Origin: Bacteroidota bacterium
GTDB lineage: Bacteria > Bacteroidota > Bacteroidia > B-17B0 > Aurantibacillaceae
Length of the DNA: 64,000 nt
Direction of reading: 5' to 3'
NCBI GenBank assembly: GCA_030681615.1
Contig: JAUXSA010000089.1
Span: forward strand, 26,857-90,856
Shown here: in pieces, positions 42,081-62,303 of the stretch
Layout of the letters: the number at the start of each line of letters is the position of its first letter
Position numbering within the stretch: the first letter of the stretch is position 1
Translations under genes and position numbers: made by a program
Notes under the pieces: model-generated
Seen by the model: only the letters and a program-made list of their open reading frames with translations
What the model was told of the DNA's origin: nothing
Databases searched by the model: none

Positions 42081-42914
42081 TTAAAGTGCCAAATGTTTTG
42101 ATCGCACTTCTTTGCCATAAAACAAAGTAGCCGCTTTATCAAAAGTTTCAGGTAGATCGGTCGTATAAAAACTAACGCTTTGCGACTTACTGCATTTTTT
42201 CTCCATCTCAGGATGGCGCTGTAAATAATCTTTAAGGCCTTGTGCAACAATTGTTCCTTGGGAAAGCAACTGAACATCGGCGGGTAAATATTTTTTTATT
42301 TTATCAATTATCAGGGGGTAATGTGTGCAACCTAAAATGATCGCGTCAATTTTCGGCTCTTGTTGCATTAAATTGGTAACATGCTTTTTAATGAAATAAT
42401 CTGCGCCTTCATTATTATACTCGTTGTTCTCTATTAATGGCACCCACATAGGGCAGGCTTCCTGGTACACTTTTAAGTTGGGAAAGAATTTTTCTATCTC
42501 TACTAAATAAGATCCAGAACTAACGGTTCCGGCAGTGCCTAAAACACCAACGTTTCCTGTTTTACTGTAATTACCAATAATTTCTGTTGTTGGTCTTATT
42601 ACCCCTAACACTCTTTTTGCCGGATCAATTTTTGGAAGATCTTTTTGTTGAATGGTTCTTAAAGCCTTTGCAGATGCTGTGTTACAGGCTAACACAACCA
42701 GTTCGCAACCCATTGCAAACAGATGATTAACACACTCTAATGTGTACTCATAAACAGTTTCAAAACTTCTTGAGCCGTAGGGCGCGCGGGCATTATCGCC
42801 TAAATATAAATAATCATATTGCGGCATTTCGCTTACAATTTCTTTTAAAACCGTTAAGCCGCCAAAACCGCTGTCAAAAACACCTATAGGTTTATATGAA
42901 GTTTTTTTATCCAT
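42081..42914 (-). CDS. murI: Glutamate racemase
   Basis: It converts L- to D-glutamate for peptidoglycan synthesis. I place the start at ATG 42914 (MDKKTSYKPIGVFDSGFGGL, 277 aa); ATGs at 42920 and 42935 are also in frame. Both catalytic cysteines are visible: VVLACNTASAKALR near residue 80 and IILGCTHYPLIID near residue 194. The N-terminal IGVFDSGFGGLTVL holds the catalytic Asp and Ser. Its stop abuts the stop of the convergent prohibitin gene, with no room for a separate terminator. Confidence 0.95.
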   Translation of the reverse strand: MDKKTSYKPIGVFDSGFGGLTVLKEIVSEMPQYDYLYLGDNARAPYGSRSFETVYEYTLECVNHLFAMGCELVVLACNTASAKALRTIQQKDLPKIDPAKRVLGVIRPTTEIIGNYSKTGNVGVLGTAGTVSSGSYLVEIEKFFPNLKVYQEACPMWVPLIENNEYNNEGADYFIKKHVTNLMQQEPKIDAIILGCTHYPLIIDKIKKYLPADVQLLSQGTIVAQGLKDYLQRHPEMEKKCSKSQSVSFYTTDLPETFDKAATLFYGKEVRSKHLAL

Positions 42915-43158
42915 ACTCATCACAAATCTAATCAAAGATCAAACGCTTTATTTATGTTTTAAATTTATTTATGTTTCGTTTTCTCAAAAAAGGGCAAAAA
43001 ATATGCTTTTTAACAGAAAAAGGCTCGGTTTTGACTGAAAATTGACAAAAAATGCATAAAAACGACTGGATTTTAAACATTCATAATCTCACATATTACT
43101 TCTTTTTAAAACAAAAGGGGCAATAAATCCGTTATTTTTACGTTTTACTATTTGATTT

Positions 43159-43893
43159 ATTAAAAAGTGTCTCACATATTTATTATGCCTAACGGTTTTA
43201 AGTAATGTTGCGCAGCTAACAAAGCGTAATTTTCGTCAGCGCGAAATTGGGTTATTTGGAGGAGCCTCTTATTACATTGGTGATCTTAATCCGCGCGGAC
43301 ATTTTTTATTATCAAAACCGGCGGCGGGTATTTTTTTTAGATATACAACGCATTACCGTTATGCTTTTCGTTTTGGTTTTAATTATGGGAAAATAGCGGG
43401 CGACGACTCGCGAAGTAAAGACCTTGACCAATTAGAACGGAATGTAAATTTTACATCTTCTGTTTACGACCTTCATGCTATAGCAGAATTTAATTTTGTA
43501 GACTACAGGATCGGAAATGACAAACATTATTTTACCATGTTTATTTTTGCAGGCATAGGCGCGTTTCATTTTGATCCGAAATCTGGTGTTGGTCCAAACA
43601 GACCATCAGCAGCTAATTTACATGGTGGTGTTGTCATAAAAAGTTATCCAAGATACCAGGTAAACGTTCCTTATGGCCTTGGTTTAAAATGGCACCTTAC
43701 CAGCATTTTTGGATTGGGTATAGAATGGAGCCCGCGTAAATTATTTACAGATTATTTAGATAATGTTAGTTCGGAATATGCTGACGGCTATATGCAAGGC
43801 AATCCGCGCACTAAAGATTGGTATTTCTTTTATGGAATGACCTTAACAATGAGACTGCCAAATCCGAACAGACCGTGTTTCCAAAACAATTAA
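43159..43893 (+). CDS. DUF6089-like outer-membrane beta-barrel protein with an ATT start
   Basis: The ORF track shows only the last 118 codons (from 43537). The same frame is open back to a TGA at 43153. From ATT 43159 it reads (M)KKCLTYLLCLTVLSNVAQ, a clear signal peptide, then LTKRNFRQREIGLFGGASYY and IGDLNPRGHFLLSKPAAGIF. The mature part is typical of ~240-aa DUF6089 barrels (FGFNYGKIAGDDSRSKDLDQ, FGLGIEWSPRKLFTDYLDNV). There is no ATG, GTG or TTG between 43156 and 43537, so initiation at ATT, or loss of the start by mutation, has to be assumed. The product would be 244 aa. Function unknown, likely outer membrane. Confidence 0.8.
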   Translation: MKKCLTYLLCLTVLSNVAQLTKRNFRQREIGLFGGASYYIGDLNPRGHFLLSKPAAGIFFRYTTHYRYAFRFGFNYGKIAGDDSRSKDLDQLERNVNFTSSVYDLHAIAEFNFVDYRIGNDKHYFTMFIFAGIGAFHFDPKSGVGPNRPSAANLHGGVVIKSYPRYQVNVPYGLGLKWHLTSIFGLGIEWSPRKLFTDYLDNVSSEYADGYMQGNPRTKDWYFFYGMTLTMRLPNPNRPCFQNN

Positions 43894-43907: not shown

Positions 43908-43943
43908 AAAAAAGCCGTTTCAATATTCTTGAAACGGCTTTTT
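43908..43943. terminator. Bidirectional terminator between the DUF6089 and sdhB genes
   Basis: AAAAAAGCCGTTTCAA and TTGAAACGGCTTTTT pair around a 5-nt loop, with A and T tracts on either side. It lies between two convergent genes and can serve both. Confidence 0.9.
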
Positions 43944-47605: not shown

Positions 47606-49723
47606 TTATACTCGAAAGCCCAGCACGGTAACATCATCAACCTGGCCCAGTTTTCCTTTCCAGCCCGTAAAGTTGTCTTTTACCACATTAAACTGTTTAT
47701 CGGTGGGTAATTCTGCAATATCTATGAAAAGTTTTTGCATGTTCTTTTTCATCATTTTTTTCCCTCTTTCGCCGCCAAACTGATCGGCATAACCATCGGT
47801 TCCCATGTAGATCATGTCATTCTTCTCAACCTTAACTATTTGCTGTGTGAATTTATAATTGCTTTCGAATGCCATTTTCCCTAGCCCCATTTTATCGGGT
47901 TTTAGTTCTATCAGTATTTTATTTCTTACAATATAAATAGATGTGTTTGCTGCACCAAAATGCAATTCCATTTTTGAAGGATAAAAAACACAAATAGCAA
48001 GGTCCATGCCATCCGATGCTGTTTTTTGTGATATGTTCTGCTTTAAAGAAAAATAGAGTTCTGTATTTAATTCCTGCAAAATTTGAGAGGGCTGGTTTAG
48101 TTTTTTTTCGCGCACCACTTTATTTAAAAGATTATTAGCTACCATGCTCATGATTGCCCCTGGTACTCCATGGCCCGTACAGTCAACAACAGAAACAACA
48201 ACAGAATCATCTGCTTTTTCAATAAAATAAAAATCACCGCTTACAATATCTTTAGGTTCAAAATATATAAAAAAAGCCGGCAAGGCTTGCTTAAATTCTT
48301 CTTCGGCTGGTAATAAAATTTGCTGTAGACGTTGTGCGTAATTAATACTATCAATAATATCTTTATTTTTTTCTTCGATAATAGAGCTTTGCTCTTCTAC
48401 TTTTTTATTTTTAATGTTTAATTCCGAATTAATAAGTTTGTTTACTCTTAAGCTTTTTAAAATAAAAAACACAAACACAGCTATTAACAGAACAATAACA
48501 ACAAGGCCATAATTAAAAAAACGTTGTCGTTTTATTTCGAGATCTTTTATTGCCTGATTCTTTTGAAGTAACTCAAGATCTTTTTTTCGGTTTTGGTTCG
48601 AGATATCGTTCTCCATTTTTGAGATCTTTTCTGAGAGGTCTGTAGAAAAAATGGAATCGTTAAGTCTATATTTTTCTTCGTACAACTCAAGGGCCTCTTT
48701 AAAATTACCGCCCGATTTAAGAAAATCTACTTTTAAATTTAATAGTGCTAACCTGGTTTTTGTATCCTTGTTTTTTGATAAATTTTGCACTGCTAAATTA
48801 TAATATTTGTCTGCAAGAAATTCCTTACCCCATTGTTTATAAAGCAGGGCAAGGCTTTCATACATAGATGCCAAAACAGATTGGTTGCCGATCTCTGATT
48901 CAAATTCAAACCTTTTTAAATAATATTGTTCGGCCTTTGGATAGTTTTTTTCGTGAAAATAGATCCCGGCAATAATTTCGTATAAATTAAACGCTCCACT
49001 ATTTTTAGAACCATTAAGCTCAATTATCTTTTGAGTGTGTATTCCAAGGATTTTAGCCTCTTCGTATTTACCAAATTCTTTTAGTGCGGTACATGTATTA
49101 ACATTATTTTTAATTATGCCCGCTGTATCTTTTAAAATTTGATACAGAGAATCGCAGCTTTTATAATAATCCAAGGCGCGTTTAGGGTTTTTTAAATTCC
49201 GGTACACAATTCCAATATTCATATAAATTGTGGCATACCTCCCCTTATCTTTTTCTTTATCTAAGGGCTCTATTGCTTTGTAATAATATTCTAGTGATTT
49301 AATAAAGTTGTTCCTGTTCTTTTCTAAAATACCAAGGCCGTTATATGCTAAAGAAATACCGCGTTTGTCATTTATTTTTTGATACAGTTTTAATCCTGCC
49401 TTTTGGTACTTCTCGCAAGAATCATATTCTTTAATGTTTTTATAGGTAGTGCCAATTACACACAACATGCCAGCATAAATTTTTTCCGTCCGCTTATCAC
49501 TTGGTTTAATGCTGAGTGCTTTGTCTTTAAACTCTAAAATAAGTTTTTCGTTCTTACCGTTAAGAGCCCTAAAATAGTCTTCGTAAAGCTTAAGCTTTAC
49601 ACTGTCTTCTTTTTCCTGCGAAATGTTTTGAAACATCTGCGCTGTAATTTCGTTTTGTGAATAAGTATTAAACGAAAAAAGGAGAAAAATTACAGCGTAA
49701 AAAGTAACTCTAAAAGATCGAAT
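47606..49723 (-). CDS. TPR-SpoIIE (PP2C-type) phosphatase with signal peptide and non-standard start
   Basis: The track begins at ATG 49636, but the frame is open upstream to a TAA and encodes RSFRVTFYAVIFLLFSFNTY-SQ, a signal peptide. No ATG, GTG or TTG occurs there, so initiation at ATT 49723 (or ATA 49729, or ATT 49741) is proposed, giving ~705 aa. TPR units cover ~45-330 (LAYNGLGILEKNRNNFIKSL). A TM helix is near 405 (FFNYGLVVIVLLIAVFVFFI), then a coiled coil and the linker DSINYAQRLQQILLPAEEEF. The C-terminal SpoIIE domain has metal-binding Asp in DIVSGDFYF, VVDCTGHGVPGAIMSMVANN and IYMGTDGYADQFGGERGKKM. It dephosphorylates Ser/Thr in an unknown target. Confidence 0.82.
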   Translation of the reverse strand: MRSFRVTFYAVIFLLFSFNTYSQNEITAQMFQNISQEKEDSVKLKLYEDYFRALNGKNEKLILEFKDKALSIKPSDKRTEKIYAGMLCVIGTTYKNIKEYDSCEKYQKAGLKLYQKINDKRGISLAYNGLGILEKNRNNFIKSLEYYYKAIEPLDKEKDKGRYATIYMNIGIVYRNLKNPKRALDYYKSCDSLYQILKDTAGIIKNNVNTCTALKEFGKYEEAKILGIHTQKIIELNGSKNSGAFNLYEIIAGIYFHEKNYPKAEQYYLKRFEFESEIGNQSVLASMYESLALLYKQWGKEFLADKYYNLAVQNLSKNKDTKTRLALLNLKVDFLKSGGNFKEALELYEEKYRLNDSIFSTDLSEKISKMENDISNQNRKKDLELLQKNQAIKDLEIKRQRFFNYGLVVIVLLIAVFVFFILKSLRVNKLINSELNIKNKKVEEQSSIIEEKNKDIIDSINYAQRLQQILLPAEEEFKQALPAFFIYFEPKDIVSGDFYFIEKADDSVVVSVVDCTGHGVPGAIMSMVANNLLNKVVREKKLNQPSQILQELNTELYFSLKQNISQKTASDGMDLAICVFYPSKMELHFGAANTSIYIVRNKILIELKPDKMGLGKMAFESNYKFTQQIVKVEKNDMIYMGTDGYADQFGGERGKKMMKKNMQKLFIDIAELPTDKQFNVVKDNFTGWKGKLGQVDDVTVLGFRV

Positions 49724-49761
49724 ATTTATATAGTAAATAATAGTTGTTAAAGTTACTAAAA

Positions 49762-50307
49762 TTAAAGGTTATTAAACGAAAATGTCTTTAACACTTCCCA
49801 CTTTTTTTCGAGTTTTAACAATGAGAAATTGCTGCAGGTAAATGTTCCTGAAAGTTTTTCGTCCTCGAAATAATTTTTAAGTTCAAAGAACAAAGGTTTT
49901 TTAAGATCGCGCGAAGCAACCGTTATATGTGGATGATAACCGCGCGAATCATTTACTTCATTAAACAACTTTAACTCTTTTTTAGCATGCATTTTTAAAG
50001 CATCATGCAAGGCTAAAAGCTGGTTATTGGGCAAAACATCTACATAAATAACCCGTGGTTCGAAAAAAGAAAAATTGTTAAGTTCAATATTAAAATCAGG
50101 CGAAAAATTAAACACATTTAGTTGTTCAATCAATACATTTTCTTTTTCTTCTTTCCATTCAAACGGTCTGTGTAATGTAATGTGGGCAGGGCTTCTAAGA
50201 GCCCCTTTTAAATCATGTTGCACAAACAGGTTCTGTTTAACCGCCTCCACCTTTTCAAATAATGGTGTTGGAATTACAATAGCCAAAAAGTATTTTTTAA
50301 CGGTCAT
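49762..50307 (-). CDS. 2H phosphoesterase (2'-5' RNA ligase-like)
   Basis: A ~181-aa cytosolic protein; I use ATG 50307 (MTVKKYFLAIVIPTPLFEKV), and ATG 50316 is also possible. The two HxT-type motifs that define the 2H superfamily are SPAHITLHRPFEW near residue 40 and GYHPHITVASRDLKKP near residue 125. Members hydrolyse or ligate cyclic or 2'-5' phosphodiesters in RNA or nucleotides; the substrate here is unknown. It is divergent from the nucleotidyltransferase operon. Confidence 0.85.
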   Translation of the reverse strand: MTVKKYFLAIVIPTPLFEKVEAVKQNLFVQHDLKGALRSPAHITLHRPFEWKEEKENVLIEQLNVFNFSPDFNIELNNFSFFEPRVIYVDVLPNNQLLALHDALKMHAKKELKLFNEVNDSRGYHPHITVASRDLKKPLFFELKNYFEDEKLSGTFTCSNFSLLKLEKKWEVLKTFSFNNL

Positions 50308-55379: not shown

Positions 55380-55462
55380 CGCTTTAACATTTACATTTAT
55401 AGACTGTTAAATATCAATTATTTCTTTGTCCCCGCTTAAGAACTCCGTAATTTTAATAAAGA

Positions 55463-57508
55463 ATGAAAAACATAAAATTTATTTTTCTTTTTTTTACAGC
55501 GTTTCTTTTTTTATCGTTTACCCCCGAAGATAAATATGTGCGCCAGGCTTTAAGACAATTAGAAAAAGGTAATTTAAGAGAAGCCAAATCACTTTACCTA
55601 AAAGCCATAGAAAAAAATCCGGATCATTTTAAAGCCAATGTTGGTATTGGATTATTATTTTCTGAACTGCTTGATAATTATACAAGCGCCTTACCATATC
55701 TCGAAAAAGCATATAACATTACAAAGAAAGATACATTGATACAATTAATGTATTCGCTCGCAAAATGTTACCAGCATAATGGCCAATACGAAAAGGCCAT
55801 TGGATTCTTTGATCGCCTTAACGGTTATGAAGATCTTGAAGAGGAGTTTGATTTTTCGAAAGATGTAAAAAAAAGAAAAGAAGATTGTCAGTATGCCATG
55901 GCACATAGTGCTTATGCTCCGGCAACGGGCTGGTATATTGTTAATGCTGGTAAAACTATTAATACAGACATGCCCGAATACGTTCCGGTATTAACACCAC
56001 AAAATGAATTGATATTTACATCGCGCAGGCAAGACGATAAAAAAGAACAATTAAGTTATTTGGACGGTAAATATTTTGAAAGTATGTACATCTCAAAAAT
56101 TGAGAATGGGAATTTTAATGCGCCAAGGCGATATACACTTCCTGATCAATTAATGAGATCACATTATTTAAAGAAACACGAATCGGTGGTATCTATGAGT
56201 CCGGATGGTAAAAAATTATTCACCTTTCGCGATAATAAAATTTACGAGATCAATATGGACGAACGCGCTTCCAAAAAACCAAAAAAACTATTAAAGACAA
56301 TTAATTTCGATTTTTACCAGGATCATGCCTTTGTAACCAAAGACGGAAACACGCTTTATTTTACAAGTGAGGCCGATGGTGGAATTGGCGGAATTGACAT
56401 TTACTATGCAACTAAAATTAAAGAAGGCGAATGGAGCAAGCCCGTAAACATTGGCGCGCCTATAAATACAGAGTTTGACGAAGACGCTCCTTTTATTTCT
56501 GATGATGGCAAGACCATGTATTTTGCGAGTAAAGGGCACGAGGGTTATGGTAATTTTGATATTTACAAAAGCGAACTGGTGAATGGCAAATGGACGAAGC
56601 CTGAAAATCTTGGTCAGCCAATAAATTCATCGGGGCATGATATTTTTATGGTGAAAGATAGTAAACAAACTGTTGGATACTTTTCTTCATCGCGTAATGG
56701 TGGTTATGGCGATATGGATATTTATAAAATAAATTATCTTGATGATTTGAATAAAGAATGTCCTACAGAAAAAACGACATTGTTTTCTCTTAATATTAAT
56801 GACTCAGAGCCGTACGATCTTAAAAACAAGGTTGAAGTAAAGGTCCCCGAAAACTTTAAAGTACTTTCGTATTCGTGGAAGGTAAATGATCTAAATGTTG
56901 ACAACCCTGGCGCTACCTTTGATTACGATTATAAACAACAGGGCAATTATACTGTATCATCAAAAGTTATTGCTTATTGTGATACTTGTTTGTCGGTGGT
57001 GGTTGCCTGCAACAGTATTGAAAACAGATTTGATAAATTGAAATTAAACGTTGATACAACCACTGCAACAGTAATTAAATCAACTGTAGTTCCTGCGGTT
57101 GACCTCAGCAAGGTAAAAGGCGAGTTAAGTAATGAACAATTAGCGGCTATTGGTTTTAACACCACTCCAATTCTTTTTGATTTTGATAAAAGTAATTTAA
57201 GAGAAGATGCTGAAGAGATCTTAAAAACAAATAATGAAGTATTAAAAAAATACCCAAGCCTTAAAGTAGAAATTATAGGTTACACCGATTCGAGGGGAAC
57301 CGAAAATCACAACATAGCACTTTCTGCACAACGTGCTAAAACTGTAAAAAATTATCTGGCTAAAGCAAAAGTAAAAAGCTCGCAATTAAAATTCACTATA
57401 GGAAAAGGCTCCAGCAATCTTGTTAATGATTGCGATAAAGGTAAAGACTGCGATAATTATATGCACTTGCAAAACAGAAGGGTTGTTTTTAAAGTGTACA
57501 ATAAATAA
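55463..57508 (+). CDS. PorE-like OmpA protein with TPR, PD40 and PKD-like domains
   Basis: A 681-aa exported protein (signal MKNIKFIFLFFTAFLFLSFT). TPR units occupy ~28-135 (ALRQLEKGNLREAKSLYLKA), then a PD40 propeller at ~165-430 (EYVPVLTPQNELIFTSRRQD, AFVTKDGNTLYFTSEADGGI). A PKD-like domain is at ~465-520 (FKVLSYSWKVNDLNVDNPGA), and a C-terminal OmpA domain at ~565-681 (ILFDFDKSNLREDAEEILKT, VEIIGYTDSRGTENHNIALS, NRRVVFKVYNK). It is a paralogue of 38824-40962, with PKD in place of the carboxypeptidase-like domain. It is probably a peptidoglycan-anchored outer-membrane component. It has its own terminator. Confidence 0.82.
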   Translation: MKNIKFIFLFFTAFLFLSFTPEDKYVRQALRQLEKGNLREAKSLYLKAIEKNPDHFKANVGIGLLFSELLDNYTSALPYLEKAYNITKKDTLIQLMYSLAKCYQHNGQYEKAIGFFDRLNGYEDLEEEFDFSKDVKKRKEDCQYAMAHSAYAPATGWYIVNAGKTINTDMPEYVPVLTPQNELIFTSRRQDDKKEQLSYLDGKYFESMYISKIENGNFNAPRRYTLPDQLMRSHYLKKHESVVSMSPDGKKLFTFRDNKIYEINMDERASKKPKKLLKTINFDFYQDHAFVTKDGNTLYFTSEADGGIGGIDIYYATKIKEGEWSKPVNIGAPINTEFDEDAPFISDDGKTMYFASKGHEGYGNFDIYKSELVNGKWTKPENLGQPINSSGHDIFMVKDSKQTVGYFSSSRNGGYGDMDIYKINYLDDLNKECPTEKTTLFSLNINDSEPYDLKNKVEVKVPENFKVLSYSWKVNDLNVDNPGATFDYDYKQQGNYTVSSKVIAYCDTCLSVVVACNSIENRFDKLKLNVDTTTATVIKSTVVPAVDLSKVKGELSNEQLAAIGFNTTPILFDFDKSNLREDAEEILKTNNEVLKKYPSLKVEIIGYTDSRGTENHNIALSAQRAKTVKNYLAKAKVKSSQLKFTIGKGSSNLVNDCDKGKDCDNYMHLQNRRVVFKVYNK

Positions 57509-59858: not shown

Positions 59859-60131
59859 TTATAAGAAGAGGATTCCTTTTATGTTAGAAGCTTTTTTATA
59901 CACTTCCATTATTTCTTCTACGTTAACAACTACCTGCATGCCCGTAATACTTGTGTATTTACCGTTGCCGCTTTCTTTAGTGTGAATGTCTGTTTCGGGA
60001 TCGAAAAGGTTTTCTACTAAAGCGATCGACCTGTTCTCGCTTGGCACAATAAATTTAAACATGTACACACTTGGGAAAGTTGTAGTCTCAACGATCTTTT
60101 CTTTAAATTTTCTAAGTTCTTCTTCTGTCAT
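59859..60131 (-). CDS. DUF493 family protein
   Basis: A 90-aa cytosolic protein. Features are FPSVYMFKFIVPSENRSIAL, an acidic middle (FDPETDIHTKESGNGKYTSI) and the second half TGMQVVVNVEEIMEVYKKAS. This is the small ferredoxin-like (ACT-like) fold of DUF493/YbeD proteins, possibly an allosteric regulator; function unknown. Its ATG overlaps the LysE stop as ATGA. Confidence 0.83.
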   Translation of the reverse strand: MTEEELRKFKEKIVETTTFPSVYMFKFIVPSENRSIALVENLFDPETDIHTKESGNGKYTSITGMQVVVNVEEIMEVYKKASNIKGILFL

Positions 60132-60769
60132 GCGTGATCAAAAAAATGCTTGTAAATAAGTACTACTCCAAAAACAACCAATAGGCTGCCTGTAATTATA
60201 TTTACCGCACGCATTGTTTTTGGTGTTAAAATTTGTTTTAATTTATTTGCAGCAGAAACTTTTCCTAATTCCACCAAAAGCACAAGGCTCAACGTGATAC
60301 TAAAATAAAGGATCATATATGGGATAGAGTAATACAATGTTTTACTAACTATGGCTACGTTACCCAACCACAATATCCAAACGGCGGGATTTAAACTATT
60401 AAGGAAAAATCCTTTAAAGATCATGGCGCTTGCCGACGGCACTTTGATCTCAATAGTTGCGTCCTTACTTTTATCAACAGGCTCTCTAAAATGCAACACA
60501 CCAAAAACTATTAAAATAATGCCGGCAATAATGCCCATAAAGCGCTGGCTTTTTTCGTCTTGTATAAAATTAGTAGCGCCGTAATGGGCTAAAAAGATAA
60601 TGAGTATACAAACAATAAAATCGCTTAATACAACACCAACCGCTAATAACGAAGCGGTTTTATATCCATGTCTGATGCCGGTATTTATTAAAGCAAAAAA
60701 GGCCGGCCCAAACGAAAAGGTGAGTAGTAAAACAATTACAAACGTTTGATATATTAAGGTTCCTATCAG
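60128..60769 (-). CDS. LysE-family exporter with a non-standard start
   Basis: The track shows only the last 136 codons (from ATG 60538). The same frame runs upstream as LIGTLIYQTFVIVLLLTFSF-GPAFFALINTG and RHGYKTASLLAVGVVLSDFI, the expected first two helices of a LysE transporter. An in-frame TAG precedes it, and no ATG, GTG or TTG exists in the first ~75 codons. CTG 60769 gives the family's usual ~213 aa; ATA 60784 is the alternative. CTG lies 4 bp after the GH3 stop, suggesting coupled re-initiation. LysE proteins export amino acids or similar small molecules; the substrate is unknown. Confidence 0.8.
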   Translation of the reverse strand: MIGTLIYQTFVIVLLLTFSFGPAFFALINTGIRHGYKTASLLAVGVVLSDFIVCILIIFLAHYGATNFIQDEKSQRFMGIIAGIILIVFGVLHFREPVDKSKDATIEIKVPSASAMIFKGFFLNSLNPAVWILWLGNVAIVSKTLYYSIPYMILYFSITLSLVLLVELGKVSAANKLKQILTPKTMRAVNIITGSLLVVFGVVLIYKHFFDHA

Positions 60770-60773
60770 AAAA

Positions 60774-62303
60774 TTATTTTTTATAGGTTTCTAAAAATGC
60801 CAGCCACTCGTTTAATTGTTTACCTTTTAAAACCCGCGGAAATTTACTTTGGCCCCCCAATTTATTTTTGCTCCCTAAAAAATCTATAAAGGCCTGGTTG
60901 GGCAATAATGTAACAAGCACATCATTTAAAGCGTGATTACGTTCAGTCGCATAATCATCATTTAATTGTTTTAAATAACCATCCAGTTTTTCTACAACAA
61001 TTTTTTGATCAATTTCTTTATCAGTACCAATATACCAATGATGAGCAAATAAACCTTTGTTTGGTTTACCAACAACACAATATTCATTAATGTTCAGATC
61101 AAGATCTTTAGCGGTTAATCTAATGGCCTTGTTCATATTATCTACGCTTAAATGTTCGCCACACAAACTCAAAAAATGTTTTGTTCTACCCGTTACAATA
61201 ATTTCGCAACGCTTAAGATCTGTAAATTTTATAGTGTCGCCAATTAAATAACGCCAGGCGCCGGCACAATTTGTTATAAGTAATGCGTATTCCTGGTTTA
61301 ATTTTACTTCTGTAATATCAATTGCCTTAGCGTTTGGTTTTACGTTTCCATCGCCGTCAAAATTCTCCTCATTAAACGGAATGAACTCGAAGAACATAGA
61401 ATTGTCGGTTAACAATTTCATGGCTTGTTGATCGTTCGGTCTTTCCTGATAGGCTATAAAGCCCTCGGAGGCCATATAAGTATCCAGGAATATTAATTTT
61501 TTTGCACAAAGTGCATTAATACTATTCTTATATGGTTGCACCGAAACGCCGCCGTGTACAAACACAGCCAGGTTGGGCCATACATCATGAATGGTTTTTA
61601 CATTATAATGTTTTATAATACGTTCAAACAAAATTTGGATCCATGCAGGTACGCCACAAATAAATCCAACATTCCATTTTTTAGCATTCACCACAAGATC
61701 CTCCAGCTTTTGTTCCCAATTAGATTGAGAACGGATCTCCGGACCCGGCAATGTAAAATTCTGGAACCAGCGCGGCTGGGTGCCTGTAGTAATGCCGCTC
61801 AGGTCGCCACTAAAATAAGTCCCGTTGTAATTTAAGTTCGTGCTTCCGCCAACAAACAAAGCCTCTGTTTCGTATTGTTCTTCCGAAAAATCAAAATGTT
61901 TTGTAGACAGGATCTGCCTTATGGTTCCTTTCTGAATGGCCTTGATCATCTCTTTTGTAACGGGAATATGTTTACTTGCCGATTCGGATGTGCCAGAGCT
62001 TAAAGCAAAGTAATTTATTTTTCCGGGCCAGCAAACATCTTTCTCGCCCTGAAGTGCGCGATACCACCATAATTCAAAAATAGATTGGTAATCGTTAATG
62101 GGTACTTTATTTTTAAATGCAGTTATTACATTTTCGCTTAATAAGATCTCGCTAAAATCGTATTGCGTTCCAAAAGAAGTAAATTGTGCTTTGCTTAAAA
62201 GTTTATTAAGCTGTTTTATTTGTTGCTTATAAACATTCTTCCGTGCAGGTATTCTTCCACGGATGGTAATTGCTTGTTTTATGATAGAGCCCAGTATGGC
62301 CAT
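60774..62303 (-). CDS. GH3-family acyl-adenylate-forming protein
   Basis: A 509-aa member of the GH3 family, named after plant auxin-amido synthetases. Recognisable blocks are SFGTQYDFSEIL, VPINDYQSIFELWWYRALQG, NYFALSSGTSESASKHIPVT (nucleotide loop), LFVGGSTNLNYNG, PNLAVFVHGGVSVQPYKNSI, DTYMASEGFIAYQERPNDQQ and YLIGDTIKFTDLKRCEIIVTGR. Plant members join amino acids to acyl acids via an acyl-AMP. The bacterial substrates are not established. The LysE exporter follows directly, so export of a conjugated product is a possible but unproven link. Confidence 0.88.
   Translation of the reverse strand: MAILGSIIKQAITIRGRIPARKNVYKQQIKQLNKLLSKAQFTSFGTQYDFSEILLSENVITAFKNKVPINDYQSIFELWWYRALQGEKDVCWPGKINYFALSSGTSESASKHIPVTKEMIKAIQKGTIRQILSTKHFDFSEEQYETEALFVGGSTNLNYNGTYFSGDLSGITTGTQPRWFQNFTLPGPEIRSQSNWEQKLEDLVVNAKKWNVGFICGVPAWIQILFERIIKHYNVKTIHDVWPNLAVFVHGGVSVQPYKNSINALCAKKLIFLDTYMASEGFIAYQERPNDQQAMKLLTDNSMFFEFIPFNEENFDGDGNVKPNAKAIDITEVKLNQEYALLITNCAGAWRYLIGDTIKFTDLKRCEIIVTGRTKHFLSLCGEHLSVDNMNKAIRLTAKDLDLNINEYCVVGKPNKGLFAHHWYIGTDKEIDQKIVVEKLDGYLKQLNDDYATERNHALNDVLVTLLPNQAFIDFLGSKNKLGGQSKFPRVLKGKQLNEWLAFLETYKK

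Follow-up and report, generated by a model that had tools for sequence, protein, structure and literature searches.

In Escherichia coli, infC and pcnB carry AUU start codons; infC has a Shine-Dalgarno (SD) sequence and is under autoregulation by IF3. Few bacterial genes are known to start with AUU, and a strong SD is present in the best-described cases. In Staphylococcus aureus, cvfC1 (AUU) and ccpN (AUA) have near-cognate starts which rely on an extended SD motif (PMC13009471). Initiation in Bacteroidota generally proceeds without SD pairing and is helped by low structure and by A at positions -3, -6, -12, and -13 (PMC8710568; PMC6847099). Literature searches on AUU starts in Bacteroidota found no paper.

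PorG is an eight-stranded outer-membrane protein with one or more cysteines in its C-terminal tail. It is disulfide-linked to GldK in Flavobacterium johnsoniae and is essential for type IX secretion in Porphyromonas gingivalis (PMC12635249). In the uncultured Bacteroidota species described here, this single-copy core secretion gene appears to rely on AUU in a lineage without SD pairing.

The porG frame and its product

The window (the whole stretch of DNA analyzed, 64,000 nucleotides) comes from a 199-contig draft assembly, the one genome for its species. On the forward strand, a TGA stop (43153-43155) closes the frame 5' of porG and is followed by TTT (43156-43158) and ATT (43159-43161), the codons after the stop reading TTT ATT AAA AAG TGT CTC ACA TAT. 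The frame (43156-43893) has 245 codons and is terminated by TAA at 43891-43893. Its earliest in-frame ATG, GTG, or TTG is the ATG at 43537, codon index 127, and the open reading frame (ORF) list gives for this region only a 118-aa ORF from that ATG. A standard gene caller would therefore drop the first half of the barrel together with the signal peptide. ATT 43159, which lies directly 5' of a conserved Lys-Lys, is the sole ATT, ATC, ATA, or CTG in the frame before 43246 and thus the only near-cognate codon in reach; from this likeliest start, porG (43159-43893, forward strand) encodes 244 aa. The initial annotation had read the frame in the same way, and its coordinates, the 126 codons free of ATG, GTG, and TTG, the loss of half the gene to a caller, and ATT as the only possible start all agree with the sequence and its translation.

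The divergent neighbor at 42081-42911 on the reverse strand, present in the ORF list, is identified from its sequence as murI (glutamate racemase). Downstream, a self-complementary match at 43908-43943 forms a hairpin with a T-run, which is probably a terminator common to porG and a converging sdhB-like gene.

The earlier assignment to DUF6089 was confirmed (PF19573, E 1.9e-32) and can now be made more specific, as the protein scored 171.1 bits against the NCBIfam model NF052316 (T9SS_PorG), exceeding its curated equivalog cut-off of 130. An AlphaFold2 model built from 18 genus sequences (mean pLDDT 77) has eight strands and an N-terminal helix at residues 2-23, with a pLDDT of 91 across the first ten residues. 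The protein is thus predicted to be an eight-stranded outer-membrane barrel with a signal peptide (43159-43212, forward strand). Cleavage likely falls before Gln19 (VA|Q), by analogy with the Bacteroidota Q-rule as outlined in PMC10653852. A solved PorG structure was sought by sequence with phmmer and a profile, and none was found. In the C-terminal tail, Cys240 (codon 43876-43878, forward strand) is invariant in 42 orthologues and is the counterpart of the cysteine through which PorG is joined to PorK/GldK; by analogy, the same linkage would form here. The two other DUF6089 genes of the genome end in KMRKIRAKF and RARLRSKF and have no C-tail cysteine, and therefore neither would be a substitute PorG. 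In genomes of the class that are more distant, the best-matching gene lies directly 5' of uppS and bamA (L108, L050), the usual porG position in the reference species; unlike this class-level placement, porG of the genus is divergent from murI.

Type IX secretion is encoded in the genome, as judged from SprA (2389 bits) and at least 150 matches to type IX secretion C-terminal domains. With SprA and so many secretion tails, porG should be needed. Comparison with the nearest genome (G019, UBA2475, DDPF01000004.1) gave a dS of 0.55, a dN of 0.018, and a dN/dS of 0.033, with four residue changes on the window branch, which indicates strong purifying selection on PorG. A 245-codon frame whose protein is 97.5% identical at a dS of about 0.55 is not explicable by chance. 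Together with the modeled helix and eight strands, the low dN/dS upholds the intact gene with signal peptide and barrel proposed in the initial annotation. On this sequence evidence, both the lack of a canonical start and the standing of the gene as a conserved porG are considered firm.

The leader and the history of the start codon

A conserved 5' element, CAATAAA-N9-TTTTTACGTT (43121-43144, forward strand), is recognizable in the alignment of almost all of the 40 genus orthologues, where it keeps a near-constant spacing of about 11-18 nt to the porG start codon. The element is intact in the window and is probably the porG promoter, with TATTTTTACG as its -7 region (compare the Bacteroidota TAnnTTTG). 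If so, the A+T-rich porG leader is probably short. The element may possibly serve a special sigma factor. Only two exact copies were found in the genome, one of them at porG, and since this count does not exceed that of the backward control, a CAATAAA/ACGTT regulon was rejected. No SD was found in the 20 nt 5' of the porG ATT, where the longest SD-like match is 3 nt, compared with GGAGG at the species' own infC. The A at -3 and -6, favored in Flavobacterium (PMC8710568), is also missing at this ATT.

porG was found in all 40 genus genomes examined. At the homologous site, which as a rule lies 38 codons 5' of a YYIGDLN motif, the start was TTG in 33 genomes, ATG in three, and GTG in two, and was absent in two, under an automatic assignment which met more than one candidate start in a few genomes. 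AUU is therefore not conserved among porG orthologues, which have TTG, ATG, GTG, and one ATC. The two genomes without a canonical start are the window species and G023. In G023 the homologous place (L022, G023:C54) reads TAA AAA GAC ATC CAA AAG, and as ATC is the only near-cognate choice, porG of this genome probably starts at AUC. Since the G023 protein is only about 55% identical, the ATC would be an independent event.

The initial annotation had implied a point mutation from ATG to ATT and had proposed aligning upstream regions to see which of the two the orthologues carry. The answer was mostly neither. From the TTG of relatives, the ancestral porG start was UUG rather than AUG, with ATT as a newly formed triplet, and a weak start is the norm for this gene. 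The start region of G019 reads ...TTGATTTG TTT AAA AAG and that of the window ...TTTGATTT ATT AAA AAG. Relative to G019 and G006, one substitution and a 1-nt deletion destroyed the TTG and left ATT before Lys-Lys; owing to the same 1-nt difference, the TGA at 43153-43155 is out of frame in these two genomes. This comparison indicates that ATT arose by indel and substitution, one base out of register with the former TTG, and dates the change to the lineage of the window species, later than its divergence from G019.

Probable initiation at AUU and its alternatives

The explanation that we favor, and consider probable, is that a functional porG is translated from AUU without an SD, one weak start having taken the place of another. 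In the genus ancestor, porG would have had an SD-independent UUG start just 3' of the conserved promoter. In the window species, one substitution and a one-base deletion then removed UUG and placed AUU directly ahead of the signal-peptide Lys-Lys. Initiation at this AUU is likely; a ribosome with fMet-tRNA would start there inefficiently, and the little PorG made would be exported, fold in the outer membrane, and join the PorK/GldK ring through its C-tail cysteine. Most of the genus retains UUG, as would suit a protein required at low copy number, and GldK has been reported to be in large molar excess over PorG (PMC12635249). AUU in place of UUG would hold PorG output low without abolishing it. 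Against initiation at AUU, this codon is a poor start, and the experimentally supported S. aureus cases were described with an SD (PMC13009471), which porG lacks.

It is unlikely that the true genome has a canonical porG start hidden by an assembly or consensus error. The assembly is a draft of 199 contigs and stands alone for its species, and one miscalled base could suffice; however, over about 42 kb of aligned coding sequence, no net frameshift relative to G019 was found inside the other window genes. Base quality therefore appears good, and a frameshift error as the cause was rejected on this ground. Moreover, two differences separate the window from G019 and G006, and reverting either alone does not give the in-frame TTG of relatives. 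ATT, ATC, and CTG starts also recur in other assemblies.

A fresh start-loss mutation, with little or no PorG made and type IX secretion on its way out, is quite unlikely. It would suit a change that came about in the window lineage once G019 had split off. In an annotation-based survey, switches to AUU were found once among 61,358 ancestral AUG starts, once among 5,080 GUG starts, and never among 2,468 UUG starts (PMC5622118), and this last figure also speaks for start loss; surveys of this kind are built on gene calls, in which AUU is seldom put forward as a start. Nevertheless, the promoter element and the whole frame are intact, SprA and the 150 or more secretion-tail genes are likewise intact, and ATT sits exactly at the start position. 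A pseudogene was rejected from the dN/dS of 0.033 and the intact promoter element, an argument which is weaker against recent loss.

Indirect initiation, in which ribosomes would start at the out-of-frame UUG at 43152 (UUG AUU UAU UAA) and then reinitiate at the AUU overlapping the stop, is speculative and highly improbable, for although this mini-frame is present and many relatives have a TTG about 7 nt 5' of the start, the upstream TTG of relatives belongs to a different frame that lacks this early stop, and the mini-frame is thus not a conserved arrangement.

Candidate near-cognate starts in the genus and comparison with known systems

Initiation of porG at AUU can be set beside a census of starts in orthologue pairs, which covered 72 G000 genes against G019, 61 against G006, and 544 G019 genes against G006. 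A canonical start was common to 526 of the 544 G019-G006 pairs. prfB, which is the expected RF2 programmed frameshift, and over-extended frames were taken out, and some of the remaining items may have other explanations. An apparent ATT case in G006, the counterpart of the window gene at 55460-57508, was also dropped, as each genome has a usable ATG. The near-cognate count is a lower bound since genes with a chance ATG, GTG, or TTG nearby are missed.

Conserved ATT codons were found in a TPR-SpoIIE phosphatase frame (47606-49768, reverse strand). In six species (L165-L170), the stretch that begins at the upstream stop and reaches into or past the signal peptide has no ATG, GTG, or TTG. Of 32 aligned codons, the only ones identical in 6/6 species are a single ATT and an adjoining AAT ATT pair elsewhere in the stretch, the rest being variable, and therefore one of the two ATT codons (49723-49721 and 49741-49739) is the likely start. 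AUU is probably the conserved start codon of this gene.

A PorP/SprF-like gene of G006 (G006:C14 217703, L155) begins ATT AGT AAA AAG, in place of the ATG AGT AAA AAG of its homologue in G019, and no other canonical start occurs in the G006 gene for 73 codons. A LysE-type transporter gene of the window (60128-60769 within the frame 60128-60790, reverse strand) has CTG at 60769-60767, where G019, G006, and G061 have TTG. This CTG lies a few nt 3' of the preceding gene's stop; a CUG start with translational coupling is possible. A gene of 1066 aa has CTG in G006 and TTG in G019. For a signal-peptide gene (G019:C1 69982-71277) and its orthologue on G006:C6, the best start candidate is CTG (CTG TCG AAG/AAA AAA TAC). 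infC has an ATC or ATT start in most genus members examined (loci L081-L100). The genus infC has a strong SD (GCGGAGG/ACGGAGG) although Bacteroidota rarely use SD. Taken more broadly, it can be tentatively proposed that AUU, AUC, and CUG serve the genus as routine SD-free starts for low-level translation, perhaps in about 1% of genes, core secretion genes included, and that automated annotation systematically truncates or misses these genes. If initiation at the porG AUU is real, start-codon choice would be looser under SD-independent initiation, weak starts may tune low-copy secretion parts, and gene callers would halve such proteins.

Compared with F. johnsoniae PorG (Fjoh_1692) and P. gingivalis PorG (PG0189), the window protein shares the predicted eight-strand barrel, the C-tail cysteine, and a genome with type IX secretion, and its single C-tail cysteine is like that of PG0189. 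Its gene differs from both in being divergent from murI and, in the window species, in lacking a canonical start codon. The S. aureus genes cvfC1 and ccpN are similar in having a near-cognate start on the ATN list that was found after re-annotation, whereas porG has no SD and Bacteroidota ribosomes generally ignore this signal.

The initial annotation had likened porG to infC of E. coli, and AUU initiation remains the best-supported reading, while the analogy itself is limited, as in the window species the ATC of infC is preceded by a strong SD (GCGGAGG) and porG has no SD. The recurrence of AUU-type starts in the genus, with a further gene in the window itself, goes beyond that annotation. 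porG resembles E. coli pcnB and infC in having a near-cognate AUU in place of the usual start, no canonical start at or near the conserved N-terminus, and an expected low level of translation. It departs from infC in that neither IF3 autoregulation nor an SD is in evidence and in that its relatives use UUG rather than AUU; conservation of AUU among orthologues is found instead in the TPR-SpoIIE phosphatase gene.
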